Virus record (IMG/VR): IMGVR_UViG_3300047281_000061
Coordinates: 1 to 21,282 of that record
Source of the DNA: a virus
DNA: 21,282 nt
Strand: one strand, 5' to 3'
The translations under genes were made by a program, and so were the position numbers. Positions 5,216 to 20,954 of this stretch are shown here, piece after piece (position 1 is the stretch's first letter; each line of letters opens with the position of its first letter). A model generated the notes under the pieces. That model was not told where the DNA came from, made no database searches, and saw only the letters and a program-made list of their open reading frames with translations.

Positions 5216-5247
5216 AGATACTTAGACAGCAACAAACAGGACTTAAA

Positions 5248-7098: not shown

Positions 7099-7102
7099 AC
7101 TG

Positions 7103-7162: not shown

Positions 7163-7214
7163 AGTAACACGCTGCGAGATTCACTCTATGCGAAATAACT
7201 TAAAGGAAATTAAA

Positions 7215-7478: not shown

Positions 7479-7510
7479 TAGTTATATTTCAGTCTTGTAA
7501 TAAGATTGTA

Positions 7511-7566: not shown

Positions 7567-7575
7567 GGGGTTTCA

Positions 7576-8360: not shown

Positions 8361-8364
8361 CAGT

Positions 8365-9969: not shown

Positions 9970-10703
9970 TTAAATTTATTATAGCAACAGCATTATTACT
10001 ATCAACTAATCTATATGCTGCCCCAACATCAATCACTGCCCAAGCTTGGCTAGTGGCAGACGAGAATGGCAAAGTGCTGGAAGGGGTAAACACAGGCGAT
10101 GTCCGCTCTATTGCCAGCATAACTAAATTAATCACAGTAATGACAGTGCTGGACGGTAATCAATCACTTGATGAAATCATATCAACAAAACTTTATCATA
10201 AGCAATTATCCAGAAGAATGCTAATGGAAATGGCAATTGTGAAGTCAGACAATAATGCTGCTACTATTTTATGTGAGCAGTACCCCGGTGGGTATTATGA
10301 ATGCCTTCACATGATGAATCGAAAAGTACAAGAATTAGAAATGTTTGATACACGTTTGCTAGATTCAACTGGATTACGCAGTGAGAACGTTAGTACCCCA
10401 ACTGATTTACTAAAGTTGGTACAGGCAGCAAGCAATTACCCCTTCATTGTGGAAACAAGCAAGCTCTCTGATATTAAACTTCAGACTAAGAAAAATAAGT
10501 GGATCACATTACGAAACACTAATCCATTAGTGGGTCACGGATATGACTTCATTGTTAGCAAGACAGGCTTTATAAATAAAAGCGGCGGATGTATTGTTAT
10601 GAAGCTTAAAACGTTACATGGGATTAGAACAGTTGTCCTATTGGGTAGCAAGAATACACGCACTCGTATACCTGAAGCTGCGCTGATATCAAAACTATAC
10701 TAG
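9966..10703 (+). CDS. Secreted D-alanyl-D-alanine carboxypeptidase-like protein (S11 family)
   Basis: 245 residues. Residues 1-18 (MIKFIIATALLLSTNLYA) are a signal peptide with a cleavage site after LYA. All three penicillin-binding motifs are in order: SITK (51-54, nucleophile Ser51), SDN (94-96) and KTG (199-201). The length fits the catalytic domain alone, without the C-terminal domain and membrane anchor of large DacA proteins, so it resembles small PBP7-like enzymes. Such enzymes trim or cut stem peptides of peptidoglycan in the periplasm. In a phage it may change the wall after entry, help lysis or hinder other phages (inference). ATG 9966 is preferred over 9957 because of the ATGA overlap and the GGA in front. 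Its TAG stop shares CTAG with the opposing gene. Confidence 0.92.
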   Translation: MIKFIIATALLLSTNLYAAPTSITAQAWLVADENGKVLEGVNTGDVRSIASITKLITVMTVLDGNQSLDEIISTKLYHKQLSRRMLMEMAIVKSDNNAATILCEQYPGGYYECLHMMNRKVQELEMFDTRLLDSTGLRSENVSTPTDLLKLVQAASNYPFIVETSKLSDIKLQTKKNKWITLRNTNPLVGHGYDFIVSKTGFINKSGGCIVMKLKTLHGIRTVVLLGSKNTRTRIPEAALISKLY

Positions 10704-10891
10704 TACAGTCGGCTAAGAGGGGGCCATCCTTGTTTAAACCAGGCGCATTGATTTAGTATTATGATAACATCATTTGTGCTTGCGTCGAGCCACTTAGCAG
10801 CCAGTTGTACAAATTTGTACCAATCTTCTATATAAGTAGGATTATCTTGTTGCCAAGCCTGATACATATGCTGAAGTGACTGAGTGTACAT
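10700..10891 (-). CDS. Small hypothetical protein, 63 aa
   Basis: Last gene of the - strand operon 11582-10700. The product MYTQSLQHMYQAWQQDNPTY and onward has a high content of aromatic and Gln residues, with six Trp in 63 residues, and no membrane segment. Its start overlaps the stop of the gene before by one base (TAATG). Its TAG stop and the TAG stop of the convergent carboxypeptidase gene share the four bases CTAG at 10700-10703. Not recognised. Confidence 0.65.
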   Translation of the reverse strand: MYTQSLQHMYQAWQQDNPTYIEDWYKFVQLAAKWLDASTNDVIIILNQCAWFKQGWPPLSRLY

Positions 10892-11373
10892 TACTTAGTG
10901 ATTATCTGAAATGTGAATGTTAATAGTGGAATTACAACCCCTAACGCACCTAAAAAAACTAGACCATTCATGATACCGTTAGCAATGTCTTCTTTTTTCT
11001 GTTGTTTTACTTTGGCGATCAGTGCTTCGGCAGCATTACGTTCTTTCATCATGCGTACACGTTCTTTCATCATGTCATCCCATACTTGAGCATTACCTGA
11101 CCAGTACAACAAGTCTTTTAGTTCACGCTCATTGTCACGTAGGGCTTTGGATGCCATGGCGATTTGTAATGCTTCACTACCAATTTGCGCATCTGATTTT
11201 CCCGCACTATCCATTCGCATTTTGCTAGTAGCAGCATGAACTGCGTCAGCCGATTGAAAGAACGTACTGAACTCTTTGTATAGTCCAGTGACATCTTTTC
11301 CTAATTGCATTGCCGCTTTAATACCCTTGACGGCACCCTGGGCCATGGCAAATGCTGTGAATGGATCAATCAT
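10891..11373 (-). CDS. Conserved phage protein with C-terminal membrane helix, 160 aa
   Basis: Begins MIDPFTAFAMAQGAVKGIKA and has long helices: residues 1-45, a charged centre (ALRDNERELKDLLYWSGNAQ) and KERVRMMKERNAAEALIAKV, then a membrane segment near the end (LVFLGALGVVIPLLTFTFQI). The IDPFTA start and the RDNERELKDLLYWSGNAxVW section form a pattern I recall from many marine and freshwater tailed phages, where the protein remains without assigned role. The gene is coupled on both sides (ATGA upstream, TAATG downstream). Its membrane tail and its neighbour with a signal peptide suggest a role at the cell envelope, possibly lysis (inference). Confidence 0.8.
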   Translation of the reverse strand: MIDPFTAFAMAQGAVKGIKAAMQLGKDVTGLYKEFSTFFQSADAVHAATSKMRMDSAGKSDAQIGSEALQIAMASKALRDNERELKDLLYWSGNAQVWDDMMKERVRMMKERNAAEALIAKVKQQKKEDIANGIMNGLVFLGALGVVIPLLTFTFQIITK

Positions 11374-11582
11374 GATGTTCGAGGCACCAGCATATTCCTA
11401 CAAATTTCAAAGCTACTCCCCTTTTGAGACTTTACATATTCATTTGCGCCGTATGTAACCGGCTTTCCTTTGATTGGCGACCGAAGTTCGCATACCTCTT
11501 TAATAACCCGCTCAGTATTAGGCCATGGATTCGCTGAAGAGGTAGGCAGGAAGAACAGCATTGCTGTGATTATGGTTTGCAT
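11370..11582 (-). CDS. Small secreted hypothetical protein, 70 aa
   Basis: Residues 1-17 (MQTIITAMLFFLPTSSA) look like a signal peptide; the mature part starts NPWPNTERVIKEVCELRSPI and holds two cysteines (EVCEL and FEICRN) that may form a disulfide in the periplasm. There is no lipobox, so it is not an outer spanin lipoprotein. It is the first gene of the - strand operon, placed next to the membrane protein 10891-11373 and close to the secreted carboxypeptidase on the other strand. An envelope or lysis accessory role is possible but unproven. Confidence 0.72.
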   Translation of the reverse strand: MQTIITAMLFFLPTSSANPWPNTERVIKEVCELRSPIKGKPVTYGANEYVKSQKGSSFEICRNMLVPRTS

Positions 11583-11590
11583 GAGATACG

Positions 11591-11604
11591 GTAGTTATAA
11601 CTAC
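11591..11604. promoter_or_regulatory. Perfect 14-bp palindrome between divergent genes
   Basis: GTAGTTATAACTAC reads the same on both strands and lies in the 117-base gap between the - strand operon and the + strand HAD gene. Its place, directly before the first - strand gene and 26 bases before the + strand -35 box, fits an operator for a dimeric regulator. No clear - strand promoter is visible around it. Confidence 0.5.
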
Positions 11605-11629
11605 TCTTATTTTTATTACCCACACTCTA

Positions 11630-11658
11630 TTGACTTACGCAATAAATATGTGTATAAT
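11630..11658 (+). promoter_or_regulatory. Sigma70-type promoter for the HAD gene
   Basis: TTGACT (11630-11635), 17-base spacer, TATAAT (11653-11658). The spacer contains AATAAATA (11641-11648), which matches the NATAAATA form of late promoters in T4-like cyanophages, so the site could serve two stages. The leader lacks the standard AGATACTTA module. Confidence 0.78.
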
Positions 11659-11699
11659 ATTATTTAAGTGACCTATATCAACATTAATAGCATTACATT

Positions 11700-12251
11700 A
11701 TGAAACTAAATGAAATAACAACAAACACTATACCACACCTATACCTAGATATGGATGGAGTACAAGCCGACTTCTTCGGTGCTTGGGCTGATAAGCACCA
11801 CGTGACACATTGGAAAGCAATTCAGGATAAAGAAGGTGAGATTGATGAATTAGCTAACAGTTCTGCTAAGCAAGTATATGATTTCTTTCGCACATTGAGA
11901 CCACTTAAGGGTGGGCTAGAAATTATTAAATGGTTACAAGAACATAATATCCCGTATACCGTGTTATCAGCTCCATTGCGCGGGCCGTTCTCAGACGCAA
12001 GTAAACAAGCTAAAAAAGATTGGCTGGACGAATTTCATCCTGGATCTAGTTCGACTGCTATCTTCACTAGCAATAAGCAAAAGTACGCAGTTACAGACAG
12101 TGTATCAAATGTATTGGTTGATGATTTCGGCCCCTACATTCAGAAATGGACAGATGCTGGTGGAATTCCAGTGAAACACGGTGATGAATCAGAAGAGCCA
12201 GATGCCGCTGAACAAACAATTAATAAGCTGAAGGAGATTTATGGCTACTAA
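11700..12251 (+). CDS. HAD-family 5'(3')-deoxyribonucleotidase-like phosphatase
   Basis: 183 residues. HAD motif I is LYLDMDGV (14-21, nucleophile Asp17 and Asp19), motif II VLSAP (88-92, Ser90), motif III a Lys in SNKQKYA (124-130) and motif IV LVDDF (139-143). The layout, with LKGGLEIIKWLQ before motif II and FGPYIQKWTDAGG after motif IV, is that of 5'-nucleotidase/deoxyribonucleotidases of the NT5C type, which remove phosphate from (deoxy)nucleoside monophosphates. Such genes are common in T4-like phages. The start has no clear ribosome binding site; MKLNEIT at the N-terminus is kept because a later start would break motif I. It overlaps the next gene by 11 bases. Confidence 0.88.
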   Translation: MKLNEITTNTIPHLYLDMDGVQADFFGAWADKHHVTHWKAIQDKEGEIDELANSSAKQVYDFFRTLRPLKGGLEIIKWLQEHNIPYTVLSAPLRGPFSDASKQAKKDWLDEFHPGSSSTAIFTSNKQKYAVTDSVSNVLVDDFGPYIQKWTDAGGIPVKHGDESEEPDAAEQTINKLKEIYGY

Positions 12252-12429
12252 AAAACCCGGACAAGAATTAAAACGATACGAAGTGATAACACAACTTGAT
12301 CCTGAAAACGGAGATGTATTACTTCCTATTCCTCCTATTCTATTAGCACAATTAGGATGGAAAGAGGGCGATGCTATTGATTTCGGCATGGATGATCAAG
12401 GCAGATACATTCTAAAGAGGACTTCTTAA
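12241..12429 (+). CDS. AbrB/SpoVT-like swapped-hairpin protein, 62 aa
   Basis: 62 residues with LDPENGDVLLPIPPILLAQL followed by GWKEGDAIDFGMDDQGRYIL, the strand-helix-strand order of AbrB/MazE-type domains (a GD turn, PxPxxLLxxLGWKxGD, then a strand with DQGRYxLKR). Proteins of this family form dimers and bind DNA, as antitoxins or transition-state regulators. No toxin gene is next to it, so a plain DNA-binding or structural role is more likely. The ribosome binding site GGAG is a good one, located inside the end of the HAD gene. Confidence 0.75.
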   Translation: MATKKPGQELKRYEVITQLDPENGDVLLPIPPILLAQLGWKEGDAIDFGMDDQGRYILKRTS

Positions 12430-12837
12430 ATGGGAACTTATATTGATCCATCTATACTAGATATTATGAACGATACATTATCCGTCACTTCATCACCGAT
12501 CTATACTACTGGCATATCAGGTCAAACACTCATATCGTCAGGCGGCACAGGCGGGGTAGTATGGGCAAATACCGGGACAAATATTGTGGGAAACTTGTCC
12601 AGCAGCTCCGGGGCGCTGAATGTCATAGGTGATGCTAAGTTTGAAGGCGAGATAACTATGAAGGGTGTCAAGCTGTCTGAAACTCTTGCTAAAATTGAAG
12701 AACGATTAGCCATTCTACACCCAAATCCAAAATTAGAAGATAAATGGGATGAACTAAAAGAATTGGGCAAACGCTATAAAGAACTTGAAGCCGAAATCAT
12801 TGAGAAAGAAAAAGTTTGGGCAATTTTGAAAAGATAA
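12430..12837 (+). CDS. Structural-type protein with fibre-like N-part and helical C-part, 135 aa
   Basis: Residues 1-75 are Ser/Thr/Gly-rich and beta-like (SPIYTTGISGQTLISSGGTG), as in short tail-fibre segments. Residues 76-135 form a long charged helix (LSETLAKIEERLAILHPNPK then ELKELGKRYKELEAEIIEKE) ending in AILKR. This two-part order is one I recall from small structural proteins in T4-like cyanophages and pelagiphages. It starts right after the stop of the AbrB-like gene (12427-12429). Probably a virion or fibre-attached protein. Confidence 0.75.
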   Translation: MGTYIDPSILDIMNDTLSVTSSPIYTTGISGQTLISSGGTGGVVWANTGTNIVGNLSSSSGALNVIGDAKFEGEITMKGVKLSETLAKIEERLAILHPNPKLEDKWDELKELGKRYKELEAEIIEKEKVWAILKR

Positions 12838-12840
12838 TAC

Positions 12841-12869
12841 TTGACTTCCGTGTATAAATATAGTATAAT
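12841..12869 (+). promoter_or_regulatory. Sigma70-type promoter overlapped by a late-promoter-like box
   Basis: TTGACT (12841-12846), 17-base spacer, TATAAT (12864-12869). The spacer holds TATAAATA (12853-12860), identical to the T4 late-promoter core. It precedes the gene at 12902. Confidence 0.72.
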
Positions 12870-12901
12870 ATAATTTACTCAACAATGTATACTTTTATCA
12901 A

Positions 12902-13297
12902 ATGACAATGCACCTATCACACCCGGCGTTAACCACATCCGGAAAGTATAAAGGTAAACATAAATTCAAGAATGCTGCTGAGGCTCAGCGGGCACGGGAG
13001 CTTGATGCTTCTTGGAAAGAACTACAGAATAAGTGGGGCGTTGAGCAGGAAGAAAATAAACGCAGACGCGCAATGCGGGCGGAAACGCTTCAATATTCAT
13101 TGACTGTGCCTGAAGGACGCTCTACTAAACATATCCCTTCTCGTAATACAGGAGAAGCAGGGGCCGTAACTCACAAGCCCTCACCGCAATATACTGGCAC
13201 AAAAATGCTAGGCATCGGCCAACTACACAAAAGCAACGCGGTTCCGGTATTCTGCGATCAAGACGCAATTGATATCGCAAGGATGCGCCGTGGCTGA
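12902..13297 (+). CDS. Hypothetical protein, 131 aa, basic
   Basis: Starts MTMHLSHPALTTSGKYKGKH; an ATG at 12908 is an alternative two codons later. It has a charged helix (NAAEAQRARELDASWKELQN) and continues with EQEENKRRRAMRAETLQ, followed by an extended basic part and a C-terminal AIDIARMRRG. The high content of Arg and Lys is consistent with nucleic-acid or capsid binding, but the family is not recognised. Its last eight bases overlap the next gene, which starts at a GTG. It lies in the structural-type section. Confidence 0.7.
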   Translation: MTMHLSHPALTTSGKYKGKHKFKNAAEAQRARELDASWKELQNKWGVEQEENKRRRAMRAETLQYSLTVPEGRSTKHIPSRNTGEAGAVTHKPSPQYTGTKMLGIGQLHKSNAVPVFCDQDAIDIARMRRG

Positions 13298-13559
13298 TCA
13301 TACATATTACTGTAAGATCACCCGCGAACGTGCTGATTTTAAATCCGGACTATACACATTTAGCGGTCCGTCATCTAGTTTCCTCAGATACAATCGGTTA
13401 GTCACACTCAGCGACAAAGTTTGGCTGCAAGGTCCACGTGGTGGCGTTAGGGTTATCAAGGATAGAATGGGTTACAGTTACACGGGATATGTTACTAACA
13501 ATCCAGAGTACATGAAAGAATTCATGTGGGTTAAACTTCAAGCCCAAACAGTTAATTAA
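13290..13559 (+). CDS. Hypothetical protein, 89 aa, GTG start
   Basis: 89 residues starting at GTG 13290 with AAGGA (13279-13283) at normal distance; a TTG at 13269 in the same frame is less likely. The product is MADHTYYCKITRERADFKSG and then a beta-rich section with PRGGVRVIKDRMGYSYTGYV. The GYxYTGYV and NPEYMKEFMWVKL parts look like a small SH3- or OB-like barrel. Unknown function. The gene overlaps the one before by eight bases and is followed at short distance by the IF-1 gene. Confidence 0.68.
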   Translation: MADHTYYCKITRERADFKSGLYTFSGPSSSFLRYNRLVTLSDKVWLQGPRGGVRVIKDRMGYSYTGYVTNNPEYMKEFMWVKLQAQTVN

Positions 13560-13576
13560 GGAATAAAAAGTAAAAA

Positions 13577-13792
13577 ATGGCAAAAGAAGAAGGCATTAAA
13601 ATGGACGGCAAGGTAACTGATGTGTTATCGAATGCCATGTTCCGTATTACATTAGAATCCGGCGCGAAAATAGTAGGTCACATTTCTGGCAAGATGCGAC
13701 AACACGCAATTAAGATATTGCTGGGTGATACTGTTGAGATAGAATTCTCTCCATATGATCTCACTAAAGGCCGCATTACGCGCCGACGATAA
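13577..13792 (+). CDS. infA: Translation initiation factor IF-1 homologue
   Basis: 71 residues against 72 in E. coli, aligned end to end: [20 protein letters not shown], then [20 protein letters not shown] (21-40), [20 protein letters not shown] (41-60) and DLTKGRI (61-67). The HISGKMR strand and the [10 protein letters not shown] end are hallmarks of IF-1, an S1-like OB-fold protein that binds the ribosomal A site with IF-2 and IF-3. Because the whole protein matches, it is probably able to bind the 30S subunit. The ATG at 13577 is supported by the conserved MAKE start, although AAGGA is somewhat far (about 13 bases). Phage-carried IF-1 is rare, mostly reported from very large phages. It may tune translation towards phage mRNAs, many of which lack strong binding sites (inference). 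Confidence 0.95.
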
Positions 13793-13832
13793 TGAAATTT
13801 CATCGAGTCTAAAACAATATAACCAGTGGTTT

Positions 13833-13852
13833 CATAGATAAATACATCTATG
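13833..13852 (+). promoter_or_regulatory. Hairpin over the start codon of the Fe-S carrier gene, with GATAAATA box
   Basis: CATAGAT (13833-13839) is a perfect complement of ATCTATG (13846-13852), with loop AAATAC; the start codon is the last three bases of the stem. No ribosome binding site precedes it. GATAAATA (13837-13844) overlaps and would fit a late promoter, in which case the mRNA could be leaderless. Both readings are inferences. Confidence 0.5.
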
Positions 13853-14179
13853 AATATCACAATAACTCAATCAGCAAGCAATAAAATAGCAGAGCTATTA
13901 GCAGAAGAAGACAATCCTGCTATGCGATTACGAATGTATGTACAAGGCGGAGGCTGTAGCGGAATGAGCTATGGTTTTGCCATGGATGAGGAACTCAATG
14001 AGGATGATTTTGAGATTCCAGCTGGTGAAACTACTATTAGAGTTGACAGCATGAGTTCACAGTATCTATTGAATGCAGTTGTTGATTACGTAGAAGATTT
14101 GATGGGCGCAAGTTTCAAAATTAGTAATCCACAAGCCCAAACAACATGCGGGTGCGGTAGCTCATTTAATCCTTATTGA
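13850..14179 (+). CDS. A-type iron-sulfur cluster carrier (IscA/ErpA family)
   Basis: 109 residues, close to ErpA (114) and IscA (107). The three cluster-binding cysteines are kept: Cys36 in VQGGGCSGMSYGF and Cys100 and Cys102 in TTCGCGSSF. The rest follows the family: ITITQSASNKIAELL at the start, RLRMYVQGGG, and FKISNPQA before the last motif. A-type carriers accept a Fe-S cluster from the ISC scaffold and hand it to target proteins. The gene stands directly before the tail-fibre-like gene, and the window also holds a Fe-S ferredoxin, so Fe-S chemistry is a theme. ErpA and IscA cannot be told apart here. Its start lies in a hairpin and lacks a binding site, unlike its neighbours. Confidence 0.93.
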   Translation: MNITITQSASNKIAELLAEEDNPAMRLRMYVQGGGCSGMSYGFAMDEELNEDDFEIPAGETTIRVDSMSSQYLLNAVVDYVEDLMGASFKISNPQAQTTCGCGSSFNPY

Positions 14180-14185
14180 TAAATA
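14178..14185 (+). promoter_or_regulatory. Late-promoter-like GATAAATA before the fibre gene
   Basis: GATAAATA at 14178-14185 overlaps the stop of the Fe-S carrier gene and is 20 bases before the fibre ATG, leaving room for a leader with AAGGATT. There is no sigma70 -35/-10 pair here, so if the fibre genes have their own promoter this is the best candidate. It matches the NATAAATA form of T4-like cyanophage late promoters. Confidence 0.45.
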
Positions 14186-14205
14186 GTATATAAGGATTAA
14201 ATCTC

Positions 14206-15342
14206 ATGGCAATCTCAGGCATACAAGTAATTAACATTGGCTTACAAAACGAATCGATAGGCAGTGATTCGTTGTATACTGCCTTCACTAAAGCAAACAC
14301 TAATTTCGACACGCTATTCAAAAACGCCAGCCCATACAATACTTTTGTAGCAAATACAGGTATGAGTATTAGCGCAAATTCATCAACTGGTACAGTAACT
14401 TTCACAAATACAGGAGTTACTTCTATTGTAGCGGGAGATAGTAGCATAGTAGTAAGTAATAATCCAGTAACTGGCGTTTACACTCTTGTCGCCCCAGGTG
14501 GTACTGGATCAGGTTCTGGTACAGTAACTAGTGTTGGAGTACTAGGTGGTACTGGATTGACGGTTACTGGATCACCAATCATATCCAGCGGTAATATCGC
14601 AATCGGACTTTCAACAAGTGGGGTAGTCGCCGGGTCATATATTGCACCTACACTAACATTAGATCAGTACGGAAGAGTTACTGCTGCTGCTTCATCTACC
14701 TCAGTCGGAACAGTAACAAGCATAGAGTTCACCCCGGGGACAGGTATTCAAGTAACAGGTAGTCCTGTTACTACGTCAGGCACAGTCAATATCATTAACA
14801 CCGGGGTGACAAGATTGACCGCAGGGTCGGGCGTAATTCTCAGTGGAAGCACAGGTGAGATAACAGTTTCTACTCTGACTACTGGTGGTACAGTGACAAG
14901 TGTCGGAGTAACGAGTAACGCGCTAGTTGTAACAGGTAGTGCGATTACATCCACTGGAACAATCACAGTTGATCTTCCAACTAACTTGGTCATCACTGGT
15001 AACATTACCGGGGGTAATTTGCTGACATCGGGTAAAGTGTCCTTCAACGGTGGTGAGGACCTTGCGAACCTAACAGCAGTCAGTTTAACAACAACTGCTA
15101 GTTACTTTACAACAGCAGCAGCAGAAACCGCAACTTTAGCAGTTGGAATATCTGGACAGATTAAAACATTCATGGCTAATAGCATCACATCTGGTAACAT
15201 GGTCATAACAGTTACTAACGCAGGATGGAAGGCATCTGGCACTGGCACAATGACATTTAGCACATTGGGCGCAGGATGTACATTACAATACATGAATAGC
15301 AAATGGTACTGTATTGGAAACAATGGCGCAGTATTTGCTTAA
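14206..15342 (+). CDS. Tail-fibre-like structural protein with internal repeats, 378 aa
   Basis: The N-terminal 45 residues (GLQNESIGSDSLYTAFTKAN then TNFDTLFKNASPYN) match the start of many virion proteins in T4-like cyanophages and pelagiphages. The middle is a series of Gly/Thr/Ser/Val-rich beta repeats: GTVTSVGVLGGTGLTVTGSP (105-124), GTVTSIEFTPGTGIQVTGSP (168-187) and GTVTSVGVTSNALVVTGSA (228-246). A second repeat type lies at about 63-95 and 193-222 (TGVTSIVAGDSSIVVS and TGVTRLTAGSGVILSG). Such repeats form trimeric beta fibres. The C-terminal part (315-378) is different and ends WYCIGNNGAVFA, a typical tip-like end. AAGGATT gives a good ribosome binding site. Likely a receptor-binding fibre or fibrous virion decoration. 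Confidence 0.85.
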   Translation: MAISGIQVINIGLQNESIGSDSLYTAFTKANTNFDTLFKNASPYNTFVANTGMSISANSSTGTVTFTNTGVTSIVAGDSSIVVSNNPVTGVYTLVAPGGTGSGSGTVTSVGVLGGTGLTVTGSPIISSGNIAIGLSTSGVVAGSYIAPTLTLDQYGRVTAAASSTSVGTVTSIEFTPGTGIQVTGSPVTTSGTVNIINTGVTRLTAGSGVILSGSTGEITVSTLTTGGTVTSVGVTSNALVVTGSAITSTGTITVDLPTNLVITGNITGGNLLTSGKVSFNGGEDLANLTAVSLTTTASYFTTAAAETATLAVGISGQIKTFMANSITSGNMVITVTNAGWKASGTGTMTFSTLGAGCTLQYMNSKWYCIGNNGAVFA

Positions 15343-15357
15343 TAGAAAGAAATTTAA

Positions 15358-15792
15358 ATGCCGACAAATATTAAAATAACCGGGCTCGTTGATATAGGTA
15401 CTGGTATATCATACAACACATTAGTGCCAGTGGTTAGTATGAGCGGAGTTCCTACTACTCGCAGTGCTAACTTACAAACGATAGGAAATGCCATCTTAGC
15501 AGGTGCAGGCGGTGGATACTTTTCAAGTGCTGCGTCAGCAAATTATGCCTTGACCGCAGGATCAGCATTGACCTCCGGAGTTGCCAATACAGTCTCAGAA
15601 TCAGCACAGCCTAACATTACATCAACTGGGATATTACAGAATCTTTCTGTGGCAAGTAGCATTGTGCTTCCAGCTAATATCACAGTAACAGGATCAGATC
15701 CACTTGTTGCTGTGGATAGTGTCATTGCGTATAAGATACCTATTGTGATCAAAGGCATCACTTATTACGTATCACTAACTGCTGCTCCGTAA
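15358..15792 (+). CDS. Small fibre-like structural protein, 144 aa
   Basis: Beta-rich and poor in charge, like the preceding protein: MPTNIKITGLVDIGTGISYN at the start, a Gly/Ala/Ser-rich centre (AILAGAGGGYFSSAASANYA) and the fibre motif SAQPNITSTGILQNLSVASS at about 82-101, which is common in phage tail-fibre proteins. The C-terminal 30 residues (IAYKIPIVIKGITYYVSLTA) form plain strands. It lies 15 bases after the fibre gene and just before the terminator, so it is the last gene of the structural unit. Probably a fibre tip, cap or attached head-fibre protein. Confidence 0.78.
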   Translation: MPTNIKITGLVDIGTGISYNTLVPVVSMSGVPTTRSANLQTIGNAILAGAGGGYFSSAASANYALTAGSALTSGVANTVSESAQPNITSTGILQNLSVASSIVLPANITVTGSDPLVAVDSVIAYKIPIVIKGITYYVSLTAAP

Positions 15793-15803
15793 TTAAATTA
15801 CCA

Positions 15804-15832
15804 CAAAAAAATCTCCCTAGGGAGATTTTTTG
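15804..15832. terminator. Strong bidirectional intrinsic terminator
   Basis: The 16-base palindrome ATCTCCCTAGGGAGAT (15811-15826) is flanked by an A-run on the left and a T-run on the right, so on either strand it gives a stable hairpin followed by U residues. It lies between convergent gene sets: the + strand fibre unit and the - strand unit ending with the gene at 15844. Confidence 0.93.
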
Positions 15833-15843
15833 TTGGGCATCTT

Positions 15844-16050
15844 TTAAGATAGTTTTTCCATCATGTAATCAGTGTAAAGTTCAGCACACATACTTGGGAT
15901 TTCAAGATAGGGATAAGTGAGAATAAACGGACAAGTTGTTTTCCATTTCTTATTAGCCCTGAAAAACTTCAACTCCAACAAGTCTTTTTTGTTTGCCGGG
16001 TTAAATGTATGCTGTGGTGCTAGTTTGTCAGCAAGAATAGAAGATGACAT
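15844..16050 (-). CDS. Hypothetical protein, 68 aa
   Basis: Last gene of the - strand unit before the terminator. The product starts MSSSILADKLAPQHTFNPAN and has a basic centre (ELKFFRANKKWKTTCPFILT) and two cysteines without clear pairing. TAGGA lies about seven bases before the ATG. Short, soluble, not recognised. Gene status rests on the good ribosome binding site and on filling the space between neighbours. Confidence 0.68.
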   Translation of the reverse strand: MSSSILADKLAPQHTFNPANKKDLLELKFFRANKKWKTTCPFILTYPYLEIPSMCAELYTDYMMEKLS

Positions 16051-16065
16051 TGAGTTTTCCTAAAG

Positions 16066-16254
16066 TTATTCTCGGGGCATTGATGCTGCTTCAGCAAGAA
16101 CTACATGAACTTCTTCCAAAGTCTGGCACATAATTTTCACAGTCTTCCAGTCATCAGTTGTAGAACGACCAGTAACTTCGACCATAAAACCGTTGTCATA
16201 CATATTAATAGTCAGGCTATCAGTTACTTTAGATAGTTTGGATGAGAGTTTCAT
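16066..16254 (-). CDS. Small conserved phage protein, 62 aa
   Basis: 62 residues, MKLSSKLSKVTDSLTINMYD followed by NGFMVEVTGRSTTDDWKTVK. The strand pair NMYDNGFMVEVTGRxxxDDW is a pattern I recall from small proteins in several T4-like phages; the last third is a helix (TLEEVHVVLAEAASM). Start and upstream stop overlap as ATGA. No function known. Confidence 0.72.
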   Translation of the reverse strand: MKLSSKLSKVTDSLTINMYDNGFMVEVTGRSTTDDWKTVKIMCQTLEEVHVVLAEAASMPRE

Positions 16255-16706
16255 GCTGGGTCCACATTGTGAAGGTCTGCTGAGAGTTCAGCATCAGCAA
16301 CGATTGAAGCTGAAGTTGCTGATACTTGAGGGAACAACGAGAGGATAGACGCAACTGTCACTTCCTTAGTGACCTTTTTACCGCGTGCCTTGATAGATTC
16401 AAGACTTGGTTTAGCTGAATTAGAAACTTTAACTTCGCCCTTCTTGGACTCTTTGACACGATCTTCCAGAGAATCAGAGATAGTCGCTTGATCAGCCGGG
16501 CTTTGAAAGTCAGCGTGTGATTGAAGAAAGCGAAGAGCCTCAATCTTAGTCATCTCCGATGGCAATTCCATCAAGTCAATACGCGAAGCACCACCTTTTG
16601 AGAATTGTTTAATACGGCGAACAAGATCATTAGCAAAGCGAACTTTGGTAGAACCATTATGAGTGATGATGCCTGCGACTGTGAACACTTGAGTAAGATT
16701 AGCCAT
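16251..16706 (-). CDS. Hypothetical protein, 151 aa
   Basis: First gene of its unit, with AAGGAA before the ATG. The N-terminal 70 residues (VFTVAGIITHNGSTKVRFAN and DLVRRIKQFSKGGASRIDLM) look like a compact alpha/beta domain, followed by a charged linker rich in Lys, Glu and Ser (about 80-120) and a hydrophobic end SILSLFPQVSATSASIVADA. No catalytic motif. The linker's Lys-rich SIKARGKKVTKEV may bind nucleic acid. Unknown function. Confidence 0.72.
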   Translation of the reverse strand: MANLTQVFTVAGIITHNGSTKVRFANDLVRRIKQFSKGGASRIDLMELPSEMTKIEALRFLQSHADFQSPADQATISDSLEDRVKESKKGEVKVSNSAKPSLESIKARGKKVTKEVTVASILSLFPQVSATSASIVADAELSADLHNVDPA

Positions 16707-16737
16707 TTTGATTCCTTAAATATAGAAGCTAAGTTAA

Positions 16738-16755
16738 GTACTGATTATTCAGTAC
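16738..16755 (-). promoter_or_regulatory. 5'-terminal mRNA hairpin
   Basis: GTACTGA (16738-16744) pairs perfectly with TCAGTAC (16749-16755) around a four-base loop. On the - strand it begins about where transcription from the 16763-16791 promoter would start, so it would cap the 5' end of the mRNA. Such hairpins slow RNase E-dependent decay; that role is inferred. Confidence 0.6.
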
Positions 16756-16762
16756 AGATATA

Positions 16763-16791
16763 ATTATAACAGAAACGGACATTATTGTCAA
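16763..16791 (-). promoter_or_regulatory. Sigma70-type promoter for the 16706-15844 unit
   Basis: On the - strand, TTGACA (16786-16791), 17-base spacer and TATAAT (16763-16768). The leader differs from the standard one and starts with a hairpin instead. Confidence 0.9.
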
Positions 16792-16815
16792 TCATTTCTA
16801 TTATAAAAATTTTGT

Positions 16816-16950
16816 TTAAATTTCAGTGTAAGAGACTCTTACATCGAACCCGAATTTTGATCGTGCTTGTTTGGTAGCAGCGATATGACTATCAGCCTTG
16901 ACCATTCCCTGAGCATTGCCGTTTTGATTGAACACGATAAACATTTTCAT
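16816..16950 (-). CDS. Very small hypothetical protein, 44 aa
   Basis: Reads MKMFIVFNQNGNAQGMVKAD and then SHIAATKQARSKFGFDVRVS to YTEI. The start overlaps the stop of the gene before by one base (TAATG), so it is coupled. The order strand, turn (QNGNAQ), helix (HIAATKQARSKFG), strand is a compact small fold and gives good reason to treat it as a real gene. Unknown function. Confidence 0.65.
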   Translation of the reverse strand: MKMFIVFNQNGNAQGMVKADSHIAATKQARSKFGFDVRVSYTEI

Positions 16951-17312
16951 TACAGATTCAACAGTTGTTTTTCTTCGGCGGTGAGCTTGTTCAGAGCCGA
17001 CAATCTAACAAGGTACTTGCGTTCGCTTTCTACGCGGGCAGCTTCCTTCTCTGCCAGATAGCTTTCCAGACTGTCCAGTTCCCATGCTTCACGAGTGTAA
17101 GTAGGACTCATTGCGAAAGTGTCGCGGGTGTTGCTGTCTCTGTCACGGACTACAAACAGATTATCCTCAACGGTCAGTTCAAAGTTATCATTGGTTGCTT
17201 GAGCCAATGCTGCCATCAAGCGAGGAAGATATGTAGCTTCTGCTTCTGCTTCTTGCATATATCGGGCGTTTTCTGCTTCAAGTGCCATTTCTGCTTTAGT
17301 CTTACGTGCCAT
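16950..17312 (-). CDS. Charged helical phage protein, 120 aa
   Basis: Starts MARKTKAEMALEAENARYMQ and is mostly helical with many Glu, Ala and Lys; a short beta part (FELTVEDNLFVVRDRDSNTR) splits two long helices, the second with ESYLAEKEAARVESERKYLV. Coiled coil is likely at both ends. The gene follows a standard promoter and leader with AAGGAAGAA before ATG. No enzyme motif; unknown function. Confidence 0.75.
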   Translation of the reverse strand: MARKTKAEMALEAENARYMQEAEAEATYLPRLMAALAQATNDNFELTVEDNLFVVRDRDSNTRDTFAMSPTYTREAWELDSLESYLAEKEAARVESERKYLVRLSALNKLTAEEKQLLNL

Positions 17313-17319
17313 TTCGTTC

Positions 17320-17382
17320 TTCCTTGTTGCTGTTTAAGTATCTATTATATCAGATTTCGGATTTAATGTCAACCGAAATCAA
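17320..17382 (-). repeat. 63-bp direct repeat, copy 1 (promoter, leader and operator-like palindrome)
   Basis: Identical base for base to 17559-17621. It holds the ribosome binding site and leader, TATAAT, TTGACA, and an 8-base inverted repeat GATTTCGG/CCGAAATC (17353-17360 and 17373-17380) that encloses the -35 box. Confidence 0.9.
17344..17372 (-). promoter_or_regulatory. Standard-module promoter for the 17312 gene
   Basis: TTGACA (17367-17372), 17-base spacer, TATAAT (17344-17349) on the - strand; the leader AGATACTTAAACAGCAAC is followed by AAGGA. Flanked by the GATTTCGG/CCGAAATC inverted repeat. Confidence 0.93.
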
Positions 17383-17552
17383 TAAATTTCTTTGATAACT
17401 TGGAACTCAGTTGCCGGATATTTAGCCTTAAATTCATCCGATTTCACAAATTCATTGAATGCCTTAGCATCAAAGAACATTTTGCTTAGCACACTTTTAA
17501 TGCTACCAATTGGGGTTACCAGAAGATAAACCGATTTTGCTTTGCCTGCCAT
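17379..17552 (-). CDS. Small hypothetical protein, 57 aa
   Basis: Single-gene unit between two copies of the 63-bp promoter repeat. Product MAGKAKSVYLLVTPIGSIKS then a helical, charged part with FDAKAFNEFVKSDEFKAKYP and end EFQVIKEIY. Has AAGGA in the leader. The stop codon TGA lies in the outer arm of the inverted repeat around the next -35 box. Not recognised; the strand-helix order suggests a small alpha/beta protein. Confidence 0.7.
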   Translation of the reverse strand: MAGKAKSVYLLVTPIGSIKSVLSKMFFDAKAFNEFVKSDEFKAKYPATEFQVIKEIY

Positions 17553-17558
17553 TTTGTA

Positions 17559-17621
17559 TTCCTTGTTGCTGTTTAAGTATCTATTATATCAGATTTCGGA
17601 TTTAATGTCAACCGAAATCAA
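17559..17621 (-). repeat. 63-bp direct repeat, copy 2
   Basis: Exact copy of 17320-17382 at a distance of 239 bases, with the same promoter and the inverted repeat arms at 17592-17599 and 17612-17619. The 57-aa gene lies between the two copies, so the unit could be lost or doubled by recombination. Confidence 0.9.
17583..17611 (-). promoter_or_regulatory. Standard-module promoter for the 17552 gene
   Basis: TTGACA (17606-17611), 17-base spacer, TATAAT (17583-17588) on the - strand. The stop codon of the gene at 17618 lies in the left arm of the surrounding palindrome. Confidence 0.93.
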
Positions 17622-17842
17622 AGACGAAATTTAGAAAGAATTTTATTTGCTTCGGTACAGTCCAAAACTTCATCGGACATTACTGTTCGAACTGCTTCAG
17701 CTAAGTCCATACTGAGTTGTTGGTCCTCGTCATCCAGACTTTTTTGCCATTGTGTGAAGTCTTCCAGCGAATCAATGCTCCACATTTTATCCAGCATATT
17801 AACCTGATATTGAGTTAGATTAGTGAGTGTGATTTTGTTCAT
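17618..17842 (-). CDS. Small conserved phage protein, 74 aa
   Basis: 74 residues, MNKITLTNLTQYQVNMLDKM followed by WSIDSLEDFTQWQKSLDDED. The pattern YQxxMLDxMWxxDSxEDFxxWxxxLxxxDQ is one I recall in many small phage proteins of unknown role; the product is acidic and helical. ATG 17842 is preferred over one at 17881 because AAGGAA stands just before it. It is the second gene of the unit starting at 18264. Confidence 0.78.
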   Translation of the reverse strand: MNKITLTNLTQYQVNMLDKMWSIDSLEDFTQWQKSLDDEDQQLSMDLAEAVRTVMSDEVLDCTEANKILSKFRL

Positions 17843-17850
17843 ATTATTCC

Positions 17851-18264
17851 TTAGATAGAGATAGTGTAAGGTTTGTCCCAAGCACCAATGTTAACATCAA
17901 CATAGTAACCTACATCAAAATAGTCTGTCATGATGTCGCTGTTGTCATGGTTACCAGTATTCATTGCGTCAAGTACTTCTTCAATGAAGTCTTTTGCTTT
18001 ACCGTCAAAATGACTTTGAAAGTGATAAGGATTTACTTGCTCGTAACCACTTGTATTAGGTTTGAATCCACGAGATACTTGATAATGATCAGCACCACAA
18101 ACACGATTAGAGTTACCAATAAAGTCAATAGAACCGGACTTAATGTTCAGAACCAAAGTCATGTGATTGCGCACTGCCAGGGAAGCCTTGACACCGTACT
18201 TAGCGCAGATTGCCTTGATAGTTGGGGCGCGTTTTGCTTTGAGTTCTTGGGACATGTAAGCCAT
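17851..18264 (-). CDS. Conserved phage protein, 137 aa
   Basis: 137 residues. The start MAYMSQELKAKRAPTIKAIC and then AKYGVKASLAVRNHMTLVLN, IKSGSIDFIG, and the end TDYFDVGYYVDVNIGAWDKP form a pattern known to me from many phages and plasmids, annotated as hypothetical. The fold appears alpha/beta with a helical N-terminus. Some relatives are accessory regions of large plasmid proteins, but no function is established. It stands behind a standard promoter/leader with AGGA. Confidence 0.8.
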   Translation of the reverse strand: MAYMSQELKAKRAPTIKAICAKYGVKASLAVRNHMTLVLNIKSGSIDFIGNSNRVCGADHYQVSRGFKPNTSGYEQVNPYHFQSHFDGKAKDFIEEVLDAMNTGNHDNSDIMTDYFDVGYYVDVNIGAWDKPYTISI

Positions 18265-18297
18265 TTTGTAATCCTGTTTGTTGCTGTCTAAGTATCT

Positions 18298-18326
18298 ATT
18301 ATATCACCAAAGTGATTTAATGTCAA
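18298..18326 (-). promoter_or_regulatory. Standard-module promoter for the 18264 unit
   Basis: TTGACA (18321-18326), 17-base spacer, TATAAT (18298-18303) on the - strand, leader AGATACTTAGACAGCAAC. The spacer holds ATCAC and GTGAT as a small inverted repeat. Confidence 0.93.
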
Positions 18327-18330
18327 CCTT

Positions 18331-18540
18331 TTATTTGCTTGAAGTGGATTTAAACAAGAAAGATGCCAAGATAGTGATGCCCCACGCCTGCAACCAACCA
18401 ATGGGTTTGACAATGGTAACAGCATCTACCAAACAACCATTCCACAGCATCATGACAGGCCATGCCAGTAGGAATCCAATGAACAACGCAAGGCCGACCA
18501 TGCCTAGCATAATAACAAGAGCAGCGATAAGTTTTTCCAT
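18331..18540 (-). CDS. Small membrane protein, 69 aa
   Basis: Residues 3-35 are strongly hydrophobic (LIAALVIMLGMVGLALFIGF then LLAWPVMMLW), enough for one long or two short membrane helices, and IGWLQAWGITILASFLF (47-63) forms another. The end KSTSSK is basic. The WN..LV.A.T.....GWLQAWG pattern is known to me from many phage small membrane proteins. It is the third gene of the 18983 unit, with AAGGAAA before ATG. It could change the host membrane or act in superinfection exclusion (inference). Confidence 0.78.
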   Translation of the reverse strand: MEKLIAALVIMLGMVGLALFIGFLLAWPVMMLWNGCLVDAVTIVKPIGWLQAWGITILASFLFKSTSSK

Positions 18541-18549
18541 GATTTTTCC

Positions 18550-18711
18550 TTAGATAAAATGTCTTACAACGATTACAAAATTGAGAGCACTTGCGAAGAG
18601 GTTAACGTTGCCCCAGCCCTTATCACCTCGGCTGAAGCAGCTCGTAGCAGCGCGCCAGCTAACAACAATACATACCACATTCAAGAGGTATAGAAGTTCA
18701 AACCAAGACAT
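18550..18711 (-). CDS. Small membrane-associated protein, 53 aa
   Basis: Reads MSWFELLYLLNVVCIVVSWR and then AATSCFSRGDKGWGNVNLFA, SALNFVIVVRHFI. Two hydrophobic segments (about 3-19 and 37-49) are joined by a short basic loop, so a two-helix membrane hairpin is likely. The start overlaps the stop of the gene before by one base (TAATG) and it stands next to another membrane gene. No known function. Confidence 0.65.
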   Translation of the reverse strand: MSWFELLYLLNVVCIVVSWRAATSCFSRGDKGWGNVNLFASALNFVIVVRHFI

Positions 18712-18983
18712 TATGCCGCAGACAACATGTTTGCAGGGACACGCCAGTTGGTCATACCAGACTTGACGATAATGAATTTACGGTTCACCTTACCAACAAT
18801 ACCAATAGTCACTCCACCGCTTCGGGTGTTTGTGAATTTCACATTAGACCCAACTGTCAATGTACATTTGGCTTTGCTGGCCAATTGTCCTCGTACAAAT
18901 TTGATTGCGTCTACCATTGAATTCAGATCATCATTGGAAAATGTGCCTGAGAGAATAGAGCGATTGATTTCTTGTAAAGTCAT
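18711..18983 (-). CDS. Conserved phage protein with SH3-like barrel, 90 aa
   Basis: A helical N-terminal third (MTLQEINRSILSGTFSNDDL then NSMVDAIKFVRGQLASK) leads to a beta part, CTLTVGSNVKFTNTRSGGVT then IGIVGKVNRKFIIVKSG and NWRVPANML. The second part has the spacing of KOW/SH3-like barrels: GxxVxF, GxxxGxVxKVxxKxxxV, WRVPxxML. This family is very common in T4-like phages and is without proven role; the fold suggests nucleic-acid or protein binding. First gene of its unit with AAGGA in the leader. A related barrel seems to be encoded at 20951. Confidence 0.82.
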   Translation of the reverse strand: MTLQEINRSILSGTFSNDDLNSMVDAIKFVRGQLASKAKCTLTVGSNVKFTNTRSGGVTIGIVGKVNRKFIIVKSGMTNWRVPANMLSAA

Positions 18984-19012
18984 TTCAAGTCCTTGTTGCT
19001 GTTTAAGTATCT

Positions 19013-19041
19013 ATTATATCACCAAAATGATTTAATGTCAA
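19013..19041 (-). promoter_or_regulatory. Standard-module promoter for the 18983 unit
   Basis: TTGACA (19036-19041), 17-base spacer, TATAAT (19013-19018) on the - strand. Its leader is the AGATACTTAAACAGCAAC form, followed by AAGGA. Confidence 0.93.
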
Positions 19042-19044
19042 GCT

Positions 19045-19191
19045 TTAGCTTCGTGCCAAATCAAATAAACGCTTAGCTTCTACTTTGTTTTTAGCGTGAA
19101 TGATAACGGTTCGTTTCTCTACGGCGTCTACGCCCAACTGAATCTTGTAAGTTGGCGGAACATGAAAATATGTGAATGTAAATGCTTTCAT
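19045..19191 (-). CDS. Small hypothetical protein, 48 aa
   Basis: Single-gene unit with its own promoter. Product MKAFTFTYFHVPPTYKIQLG then VDAVEKRTVIIHAKNKVEAK, ending RLFDLARS. A strand-rich first half and a basic helical second half. AAGGA in the leader about eight bases before ATG. The stop lies four bases before the -35 box of the next promoter. Not recognised. Confidence 0.72.
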   Translation of the reverse strand: MKAFTFTYFHVPPTYKIQLGVDAVEKRTVIIHAKNKVEAKRLFDLARS

Positions 19192-19220
19192 ATACTGTCC
19201 TTGTTGCTGTTTAAGTATCT

Positions 19221-19249
19221 ATTATATCACCAAAATGATTTAATGTCAA
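19221..19249 (-). promoter_or_regulatory. Standard-module promoter for the 19191 gene
   Basis: TTGACA (19244-19249), 17-base spacer, TATAAT (19221-19226) on the - strand. The TGA stop of the kinase-like gene (19246-19248) is part of the -35 box. Spacer and leader are the same as at 19013. Confidence 0.93.
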
Positions 19250-19716
19250 CCTTTTGACTGTCTGATTTCTGAAAATCCTTCACTTAATGTAGGAACTTCA
19301 AATCCGCGGATCATTTGAACCATTACATGCGAAGGTATGTTTTTCCCGGGCCGCGACTTCAACCGTAGATTCAACTCTGTAAGCTCGGGTGTTTTAAACA
19401 CCACAGCAATGGCCTCATACTCGGGCAACATGTTGAACTTTTTAGCACGGCTTTTAATAGTAGTAGAAGTTTGGTCCCACACAATGTCTTTGCCTGCGGC
19501 GCGGGCAGCTACGACTTGAGCAGCCATTAACTTCACCGCAGTTGGCATGTATGCTTCAAATACTTCATTGTAAGTTTTCTTGTTTACATCTGCGTATTGC
19601 TCAACGAAACGGTCGGTACTAACTAATTCAGTGTTATCCCAATTGAAATCCTGATGCCCGATCCAAGTTGTTTTACCTGCTCCGGGCACCCCTACTAATA
19701 CATATAACTTAGGCAT
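19246..19716 (-). CDS. Polynucleotide-kinase-like P-loop ATPase, 156 aa
   Basis: 156 residues. Walker A is GVPGAGKTTW (9-18). STDRF (33-37) with Asp35 is the place of the catalytic Asp in T4 polynucleotide kinase-type enzymes. WDQTSTTIKSR (80-90) and the lid-like LNLRLKSRPGKNIPSHVMVQ (115-134) also fit the family. It is best seen as a kinase domain of the PseT/AAA_33 type; the phosphatase half of T4 PseT is missing. Zeta-toxin-like kinases have a similar core, so substrate (5'-OH RNA/DNA or a small molecule) is open. ATG 19716 is chosen because it overlaps the upstream stop by one base (TAATG). It is in one unit with a phosphatase and an HD protein. Confidence 0.87.
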   Translation of the reverse strand: MPKLYVLVGVPGAGKTTWIGHQDFNWDNTELVSTDRFVEQYADVNKKTYNEVFEAYMPTAVKLMAAQVVAARAAGKDIVWDQTSTTIKSRAKKFNMLPEYEAIAVVFKTPELTELNLRLKSRPGKNIPSHVMVQMIRGFEVPTLSEGFSEIRQSKG

Positions 19717-20195
19717 TAAATATCGCCCTCCCAATCAAATTTTGCTGATAAATTTACCGGTGTGGACTCTTCGTCTTCATCATAAGTCCAACCTAGCACC
19801 TTTGACATTTTGTGCTTGACTAACAGATTAGGTTGACGATATCGACCAACATCATCAAATCCCATCTGAACGCCAATTTCTGTTACTGCGCCTGAGCGGC
19901 AAATGCCAGCCGTACAATGAACAATGACATTCATATCATTGAGCAAAGCATGTTTAAGCAACCAAACAAGTTCAGCGGCTTGTGAATCACTCACTCGGCA
20001 TTCTTCGTCAAACACCGCGTCATCTTTTTCAATGTCAAGGAACTCAAAGTTGTGGCGTTGTTTGAAGTTGGTCACTGCCTCGGGACTCCACCCTGCTGGA
20101 TCAGTGATGCTAATCAGCATGGAGTTTTCTCCGGGGTCTTTATACCATTTGCCGGAACTAATGTCGCTTGCTGCGCAATTTTGAATGAATGCCAT
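19716..20195 (-). CDS. Dual-specificity / tyrosine-type protein phosphatase, 159 aa
   Basis: 159 residues with the cysteine phosphatase loop VHCTAGICRSG at 92-102: nucleophile Cys94, Arg100 and Ser101, after His93. The upstream part ISITDPAGWSPEAVTNFKQR and EFLDIEKDDA has an Asp in the range expected for the general acid. It is small and single-domain, like dual-specificity phosphatases; relatives in phages are not well known. Targets may be phosphoproteins, or RNA 5' phosphates as in Baculovirus BVP-type enzymes, which would fit its kinase neighbour. ATG 20195 is preferred since GGGA lies before it and the HD gene ends four bases upstream. The C-terminus is acidic. Confidence 0.85.
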   Translation of the reverse strand: MAFIQNCAASDISSGKWYKDPGENSMLISITDPAGWSPEAVTNFKQRHNFEFLDIEKDDAVFDEECRVSDSQAAELVWLLKHALLNDMNVIVHCTAGICRSGAVTEIGVQMGFDDVGRYRQPNLLVKHKMSKVLGWTYDEDEESTPVNLSAKFDWEGDI

Positions 20196-20199
20196 CTTA

Positions 20200-20643
20200 T
20201 TATCCCAATCTTGCTTTGATTTCCATGTAAAAAGTGTGATACTTTGCCATACGAGCAATGTCTTTTTCAGTGACGCCTTTCAGTCTACGGATATCTGTGT
20301 TGTGACGCAGATCAGCCATTTTGACTCGCATAGCATCGGTACTAGCAAATACCCCTTCTTTGTATTCTTCGTAAGTCTGCCCCGGCTGTTTTGTCAGTGC
20401 CCGGACAGCATCAATCACTCGCTCACTGATACCGGCATCACGAAGGTCCTTGTAAGTAACTGAGGTGTCTTCAATGACATCATGCCCAAGAGCCATACAC
20501 ATCAGTTCCTCGTCCTCGGACTTCAGGTAGTGCATAACTTTCAGTGGGTGAAGAATGTATGGAGCACCACCTTTGTCGTATTGACCATCGTGTGCGTTAG
20601 TGGCAATGACTAACATCGTAGCTAACATGTGACCTTTTTTCAT
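20200..20643 (-). CDS. HD-domain hydrolase of the SpoT/MESH1 type, 147 aa
   Basis: 147 residues. HD-family marks match small alarmone hydrolases: NAHDGQYDKGGAPYILHPLK (16-35) with His18 and His32, LGHDVIEDT (52-60) with His54, Asp55, Glu58 and Asp59, and KMADLRHNTD (108-117) with Asp111 and Asn115. The metal and nucleotide ligands are thus present, and there is no synthetase domain. Proteins of this sort remove pyrophosphate from (p)ppGpp; animal MESH1 also acts on NADPH. In a phage it could lift stringent response during infection or act on defence alarmones (inference). It is the first gene of its unit; AAAGGG precedes the ATG, and the kinase and phosphatase genes follow. Confidence 0.88.
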   Translation of the reverse strand: MKKGHMLATMLVIATNAHDGQYDKGGAPYILHPLKVMHYLKSEDEELMCMALGHDVIEDTSVTYKDLRDAGISERVIDAVRALTKQPGQTYEEYKEGVFASTDAMRVKMADLRHNTDIRRLKGVTEKDIARMAKYHTFYMEIKARLG

Positions 20644-20669
20644 TGTGTGCCCTTTCTATCTATGCTTAC

Positions 20670-20698
20670 ATTATAGCATCAAAACCATTTACTGTCAA
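20670..20698 (-). promoter_or_regulatory. Sigma70-type promoter for the HD/phosphatase/kinase unit
   Basis: TTGACA (20693-20698), 17-base spacer, TATAAT (20670-20675) on the - strand. The TGA stop of the gene at 20695 is inside the -35 box. The leader differs from the standard one. Confidence 0.9.
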
Positions 20699-20892
20699 CC
20701 GAAAGAGAATTCCCTAACCCAGTCGAATCGGGTTGTTGCGGGGACCCACTTGAATTGCTCACGCTTTCGGTTTATCTTTTCAAAGTCAAAACAGACCATT
20801 ACCCAATATTTGTCAGTAGAAAAGCCAACTGTTTCAGCGACACGGACGACTTCAACCACTCTACCGTCTGTCATTTTTGCTACTACGACCAT
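20695..20892 (-). CDS. Small hypothetical protein, 65 aa
   Basis: Starts MVVVAKMTDGRVVEVVRVAE and continues TVGFSTDKYWVMVCFDFEKI to a basic aromatic end with EQFKWVPATTRFDWVREF. Mostly beta strands, as in small barrel proteins. AGGAG stands before ATG in its leader. The stop codon shares bases with the next -35 box. Single-gene unit; function unknown. Confidence 0.73.
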   Translation of the reverse strand: MVVVAKMTDGRVVEVVRVAETVGFSTDKYWVMVCFDFEKINRKREQFKWVPATTRFDWVREFSFG

Positions 20893-20925
20893 TGTATGCT
20901 CCTACTAGTTGCTGTCTAAGAGTCT

Positions 20926-20954
20926 ATTATACACCCAAAATGATTTACTGTCAA
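20926..20954 (-). promoter_or_regulatory. Standard-module promoter for the 20892 gene
   Basis: TTGACA (20949-20954), 17-base spacer, TATAAT (20926-20931) on the - strand; leader AGACTCTTAGACAGCAAC, two bases off the standard. The TGA of the next gene upstream (20951-20953) lies in the -35 box. Confidence 0.92.

Follow-up and report, generated by a model that had tools for sequence, protein, structure and literature searches.

Three neighbouring minus-strand genes of a virus, encoding a predicted RSH-type pyrophosphohydrolase (HD), a CX5R cysteine phosphatase (PTP) and a polynucleotide-kinase-like P-loop protein (KIN), probably represent, in reduced or rearranged form, a phage gene set for the repair of RNA ends, mainly those of tRNA, and for counter-defence. 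We put the probability of this reading, in which both the substrates and the counter-defence role are predicted, at about 0.6. The stretch analysed here (the window, 21,282 bases) is a whole IMG/VR record and probably a fragment of a larger genome; a nucleotide-level search returned no near relative among isolated phages. In related phages, genes of these kinds stay grouped with RNA ligases, a pattern that suggests a viral toolkit for undoing the RNA damage that bacteria inflict on themselves against infection.

HD comes first and is separated from the PTP start codon by 4 nt, whereas the stop codon of PTP and the start codon of KIN overlap by 1 nt (TAATG; Table 1). Because promoter-like sites lie before HD and at the end of KIN, the trio is predicted to form one transcription unit, set within an array of short, separately promoted units; a scan of the window found no perfect sigma-70-type site inside it. 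Perfect TTGACA-16/18-TATAAT sites number nine in the window, against 0.00 expected in shuffled sequences. With its three reading frames, tight junctions and single upstream promoter-like site, the unit matches the operon that a sequence-only reading had proposed, and the three enzyme families named there (HD hydrolase, cysteine phosphatase and kinase) are upheld by profile matches and invariant motifs, which speak against chance. The longer, TTG-started versions of PTP and KIN given by the ORF lister were rejected, as the extension is not conserved in relatives; these starts are probably wrong because the extra 21 residues of PTP are either not open or not conserved there. The nine promoter-like sites themselves span positions 5187-20954 of the window, eight of them being minus-strand sites between 16763 and 20954, and have similar spacers, for example TTAAATCATTTTGGTGA; sites of the same type occur in related contigs.

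Table 1. The three-gene unit and adjoining features, in window coordinates
Feature	Coordinates	Strand	Remarks
HD, predicted RSH-type HD pyrophosphohydrolase, (p)ppApp-hydrolase-like	20643-20200	minus	147 aa, ATG start
PTP, predicted CX5R cysteine phosphatase	20195-19716	minus	159 aa from ATG at 20195
KIN, P-loop polynucleotide-kinase-like protein	19716-19246	minus	156 aa from ATG at 19716
Predicted promoter of the HD-PTP-KIN unit, perfect sigma-70-type	20698-20670	minus	TTGACA-17-TATAAT, precedes HD
Next perfect sigma-70-type promoter-like site	19249-19221	minus	Lies at the KIN end and delimits the unit
Small conserved ORF upstream of HD	20892-20695	minus	Collinear with G001, the closest distinct relative, where a 66-aa gene precedes HD

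Both the sequence and the predicted fold of KIN resemble those of polynucleotide kinases, and activity on 5′-OH RNA is predicted. It matches Pfam AAA_33 (E=2e-16) and Pnkp structures (E=4e-13), the profile search returning Clostridium thermocellum Pnkp, bacterial Pnkp1, mammalian PNKP and T4 PNK, and its predicted model (pLDDT 92) matches Pnkp and T4 PNK folds with TM values up to 0.76. In T4, PseT and RnlA repair cleaved tRNA, as the notes of the T4 record also state; roles in T4 PNK are assigned to Lys15, Asp35, Asp85 and Arg126, and Arg38 contacts the acceptor. KIN shares the P-loop kinase fold and keeps equivalents of Lys15, Ser/Thr16, Asp35, Asp85 and Arg126; across its family G9, P11, G14, K15, D35 and R122 are invariant, and D81 aligns with T4 Asp85. 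It differs from PseT in standing alone, since its 156 aa comprise the kinase domain and no C-terminal HAD 3′-phosphatase domain, in being accompanied by a cysteine phosphatase and an RSH-type HD, and at the Arg38 position, which is Val in the window and not Arg in any family member aligned, so that the acceptor may differ.

As in the T4 system, KIN relatives sit with Rnl1-type ligases. An RNA ligase gene abuts the KIN relative in Caulobacter phage Cr30, DSS3_MAL1 and Synechococcus phage BUCT-ZZ01 (for Cr30 and BUCT-ZZ01 the Rnl1 type rests on a profile match, for DSS3_MAL1 on annotation), phages RcXuper and RpAliso carry, by annotation, a kinase beside an Rnl1-type ligase, and PHROG 8238 joins a KIN-like kinase region and an RNA ligase region in one protein family. 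The label polynucleotide-kinase-like, first given from the sequence alone, is thus borne out by the Pnkp/PNK matches, the predicted fold and the adjoining ligases. The kinase homologue of phage phiM12 is apparently interrupted by a GIY-YIG homing endonuclease gene (L246:7139-8192).

HD matches PHROG 990 (E=9e-60) and TIGR00691 spoT_relA (E=2e-16), and the RSH catalytic motifs (H32, H54-D55, E58-D59, K108, D111 and N115) are invariant. Its nearest solved relative is 7smg (E=5.6e-34), named (p)ppApp hydrolase in the PDB, which we take to be Aph1, with 120 bits against 77 for the next match by profile and 92 against 46 by single sequence. The two proteins have a compact length and the GQxDKxG and NxDIxRL motifs in common, but are 38% identical. 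The window family reads GQYDKGG, that is D-K where canonical RSH hydrolases and PaSpo, the RSH-type hydrolase of Salmonella phage SSU5, have R-K. This substitution and the wide margin in favour of 7smg argue against the earlier SpoT/MESH1-like assignment; HD is predicted to be an RSH-type pyrophosphohydrolase that resembles 7smg more than it does SpoT/MESH1. Proteins of the window type are common in phages (341 phage records). The closest distinct relative of the window also encodes a 425-aa protein (L158:348-1625) with a nucleotidyltransferase-like N-terminus (PGGFHPFHAGH) fused to an RSH-type HD domain.

The exact order of the three genes is, by comparison of contigs, a local variant, and PTP-KIN is the conserved unit. 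HD directly precedes PTP-KIN only in the window and in L002 and L003, contigs of nearly the same phage; the search for this order in other phages, which the sequence-only reading had suggested as a check, thus does not support a conserved three-gene operon. Contig G001 (117 kb), which is the closest distinct relative, has the order HD-rIIA-rIIB-PTP-KIN, with separate promoter-like sites, in the coordinates of locus L157, for HD (5709), rIIA (6208) and PTP (9430) and therefore separate transcription units. Its alignment (locus L157) jumps from 6207 to 9488, where L002 goes on with a 5-base step; the window lacks these 3.3 kb, which hold rIIA-rIIB, together with the promoter of PTP. The trio is best explained by the absence of this segment and promoter, through loss here or gain there, and it is because they are absent that HD would share the PTP-KIN unit. 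PTP is followed directly by KIN in about 25 contigs, with a promoter-like site of its own in those inspected. An ancient three-gene operon was rejected, given that the junction occurs in near-identical contigs only and rIIA-rIIB is absent.

A set of the kind proposed in the earlier reading nevertheless recurs in many phages, where an RNA ligase and also a phosphoesterase of the calcineurin-like type (MPE) join the cysteine phosphatase, the kinase and an RSH-type HD hydrolase. In dozens of IMG/VR contigs PTP, KIN, MPE, an HD hydrolase and an Rnl1-type ligase lie within a few kilobases, in the order PTP-KIN-MPE-HD-RNL1 at several PTP loci and in varying order among the island loci as a whole; the island ligases checked have the K-x-N-G motif and match PHROG 562 (RnlA). 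The HD of these islands is another RSH type, which has R-K and is 49% identical to PaSpo, whereas identity of the window HD to PaSpo and to the island HDs is only about 27-31%, and the RK that both have before the PY-x-H motif, a PaSpo/MESH1-like feature, is missing from it. A search with island HD, from which the best 80 of 579 relatives were taken, a sample therefore biased towards island-like members, gave 35 non-redundant loci whose 2-kb flanks hold MPE in 30, KIN in 25, PTP in 23 and Rnl1 in 18; KIN, PTP or ligase lies within 2 kb in 32 of the 35. Within the same best 80, PTP, KIN, MPE and HD share one strand at 50 of 79 loci, 27 of these 50 also with a ligase. In the isolated phages SSU5, RHph_X66 and D6, PaSpo-type HD has no annotated RNA-repair neighbours. 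These contexts point to a real and widespread phage RNA-repair island, in which the roles of PTP and the RSH-type HD are predicted.

Linkage was assessed in 50 long contigs against uniform placement, with p values combined over contigs that are treated as independent and are only partly so. PTP and KIN co-occur in 13 long contigs and lie within 3 kb of each other in 11 of them (combined p=1e-7), and a ligase lies near KIN at a combined p=1e-3; the placement of window-type HD relative to KIN is that of chance (p=0.50), and relative to PTP it gives p=0.06, a value that becomes 0.18 when one of two related contigs is left out. KIN is found within 3 kb at 15/25 non-redundant PTP loci versus 1/36 window-type HD loci (Fisher p=6e-7), and MPE at 19/25 versus 4/36 (Fisher p=3e-7). 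A serious competitor, to which we give somewhat less than even odds, is therefore that PTP-KIN is a repair pair and HD an independent anti-signalling enzyme that degrades (p)ppApp or related nucleotides, the shared promoter being an accident of the absence of rIIA-rIIB. It would account for the separate promoters of HD and PTP-KIN, with rIIA-rIIB between them, in the closest relative, for the lack of linkage to KIN, and for the fact that phages often have HD but no PTP (HD in 341 phage records, PTP in one). However, in many phages an RSH-type HD of another kind shows tight linkage with PTP, KIN and ligase, and window-type HD itself lies at most 0.5 kb from PTP, in several arrangements, in L074, L076-L081, L087, L088, L091 and L092. 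In Sinorhizobium phage phiN3, moreover, window-type HD, KIN and a metallophosphoesterase fall within 4.3 kb, with HD about 2 kb from KIN; phiM12 has a similar arrangement.

If the trio is, as we prefer, an RNA-end repair and counter-defence set, KIN would phosphorylate the 5′-OH ends of RNA cut by host nucleases, and the treated ends would be resealed by an RNA ligase that the phage encodes at another place in its genome. PTP, the conserved partner of KIN, would most likely take phosphate off an RNA end or repair intermediate, and HD would take the 3′-pyrophosphate off adenosine, either in (p)ppApp or at tRNA CCA ends modified by toxins of the toxSAS or CapRel type. In the wider islands MPE, and possibly PTP, would clean 3′ or 2′ ends, KIN would phosphorylate 5′ ends, the ligase would seal and HD would restore CCA. 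The islands read as RNA or tRNA end repair because of the precedents of toxSAS/CapRel, PaSpo and T4 PseT/RnlA. ToxSAS toxins pyrophosphorylate tRNA at the 3′-CCA end, a modification that, when made by FaRel2, PaSpo of SSU5 is reported to remove (PMC11559606), and CapRel pyrophosphorylates tRNA when triggered by phage capsid protein (PMC9712102). More tentatively, and on balance doubtfully, a single island may counter two attacks on tRNA, cleavage of the anticodon loop (through kinase, phosphoesterase and ligase) and CCA pyrophosphorylation by toxSAS/CapRel (through the RSH-type HD), with PTP, as a new viral cysteine phosphatase family, acting on RNA ends and the window being a compact variant that uses a (p)ppApp-hydrolase-like HD as its hydrolase. 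If true, one phage gene set would answer two separate tRNA-directed defences, and phage alarmone-type hydrolases would count as enzymes of RNA repair no less than of anti-signalling.

PTP appears to be a divergent CX5R phosphatase of a large and almost purely viral family. It matches public models weakly (DSPc, E=2e-4; PHROG 5614, E=5e-9), yet its loop, HCTAGICRSGA in the window, is invariant as HCxAG(I/V)CRSGA in 18 relatives, with H93, C94, R100 and S101 all kept; in the same relatives D54 is invariant and D59 nearly so, and either could be the general-acid Asp. In viral contigs at least 584 relatives were picked up by a profile scan, whereas prokaryotes yielded 3 among 84,980 species genomes, all metagenome-assembled, and isolated phages yielded BUCT-ZZ01 only. 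If the repair reading is right, this family, which counts hundreds of proteins from viral metagenomes but hardly any from bacterial genomes, would gain a genomic context and thereby testable substrates. The predicted model (pLDDT 85) matches VH1/DUSP phosphatase folds in part (TM 0.4-0.5), so the substrate cannot be read from the fold, and the nearest sequences, by weak similarity, are DSPs, which are protein phosphatases. Such neighbours in fold and sequence would be expected of a protein tyrosine or dual-specificity phosphatase that alters host regulation and lies near KIN through shared early expression only; we consider this unlikely, given the modest overlap of the models and the persistence of PTP in the company of KIN, MPE and ligase in divergent phages despite changes of gene order. 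Nor need PTP be the healer of 3′ ends, because the islands carry MPE as a separate phosphoesterase. A baculovirus-type RNA 5′-phosphatase was rejected as a model for PTP, as it reached rank 35 only in the fold search. G001 encodes a second cysteine-phosphatase-like protein (LLFVCSVGMLRSPTA, in the style of low-molecular-weight PTP) just upstream of HD (L157:4857-5273); it is absent from the window and has no Pfam or PHROG match.

In CthPnkp the kinase and the calcineurin-type phosphatase are parts of one protein. The islands share the kinase fold of the CthPnkp/Pnkp1-Rnl-Hen1 systems, but have kinase and calcineurin-type phosphatase as neighbouring genes and add PTP and HD. RNA repair by jumbo phages with ligases, kinases, calcineurin-like and HD-like phosphatases has already been proposed, as has the action of a phage HD protein on alarmones (PMC7824862). 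These systems and the V5-like sirtuin/ligase clusters of PMC9503650 resemble the islands in their ligases, kinases and calcineurin-like or HD-like phosphatases, but the passages of the two papers that were searched do not mention a cysteine phosphatase as a conserved member. Phage Adele is reported to have, as separate anti-defence items, two RNA ligases, an alarmone hydrolase and a kinase that has no phosphatase domain (PMC12846349). A limited literature search, which is weak evidence, found no description of a phage RNA-repair island in which a cysteine phosphatase is a fixed member, or of such an island with a PaSpo-type hydrolase.

The sequence-only reading had suggested looking for an RNA ligase in this genome: none was found in the 21.3 kb of the window plus the 1.9 kb that L002 adds, but G001 and many other relatives carry one. 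In G001 a gene of the Rnl2 type ends about 3.3 kb upstream of HD, and the additional sequence of L002 holds no Rnl2-type gene. This ligase of G001 is apparently split by a GIY-YIG endonuclease gene in an intron-like manner (L157:134-2442; G001 34133-36441). No match to the MPE profile was found in the window; a different metallophosphoesterase is encoded at 6259-7098 (+). Among other repair routes, RtcB ligase was found in none of 36 records and RlaP (PF10127) in none of 32.

Two genes of the window are likely an NAD+ salvage pair, a nicotinamide phosphoribosyltransferase (2308-3717, plus strand; PHROG 448, E=3e-161) and a cytidyltransferase/Nudix protein (4168-5190, plus strand; PHROG 395, E=6e-77). 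Their presence would fit a role of PTP, MPE and HD in processing ADP-ribose phosphates or similar NAD-derived products of 2′-phosphate removal (the KptA/sirtuin route) rather than RNA ends. So would the host systems described in PMC9503650, which couple rhodanese-type, calcineurin-like and alarmone-type HD phosphatases to ADP-ribose processing by ADP-ribosylglycohydrolase systems, and the sirtuin-ligase phage clusters described there. We hold this to be quite improbable: a search of 32 related contigs, many of them fragments, found no KptA/Tpt1 (PF01885) above cut-off, the neighbours are a ligase and a kinase, and the salvage genes lie more than 14 kb off on the other strand. Least probable of all is a zeta-toxin-like or small-molecule kinase in place of an RNA kinase, for although KIN exceeds the Pfam Zeta_toxin cut-off slightly (23.3 versus 22.3 bits) and has no counterpart of T4 Arg38, its AAA_33 and Pnkp/PNK matches are stronger, it adjoins ligases and a kinase-ligase protein family exists.

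Other plus-strand genes of the window encode a cysteine-dioxygenase-like protein (7576-8079), a dCMP deaminase (9264-9785) and a 5′-deoxyribonucleotidase-like protein (11700-12251).
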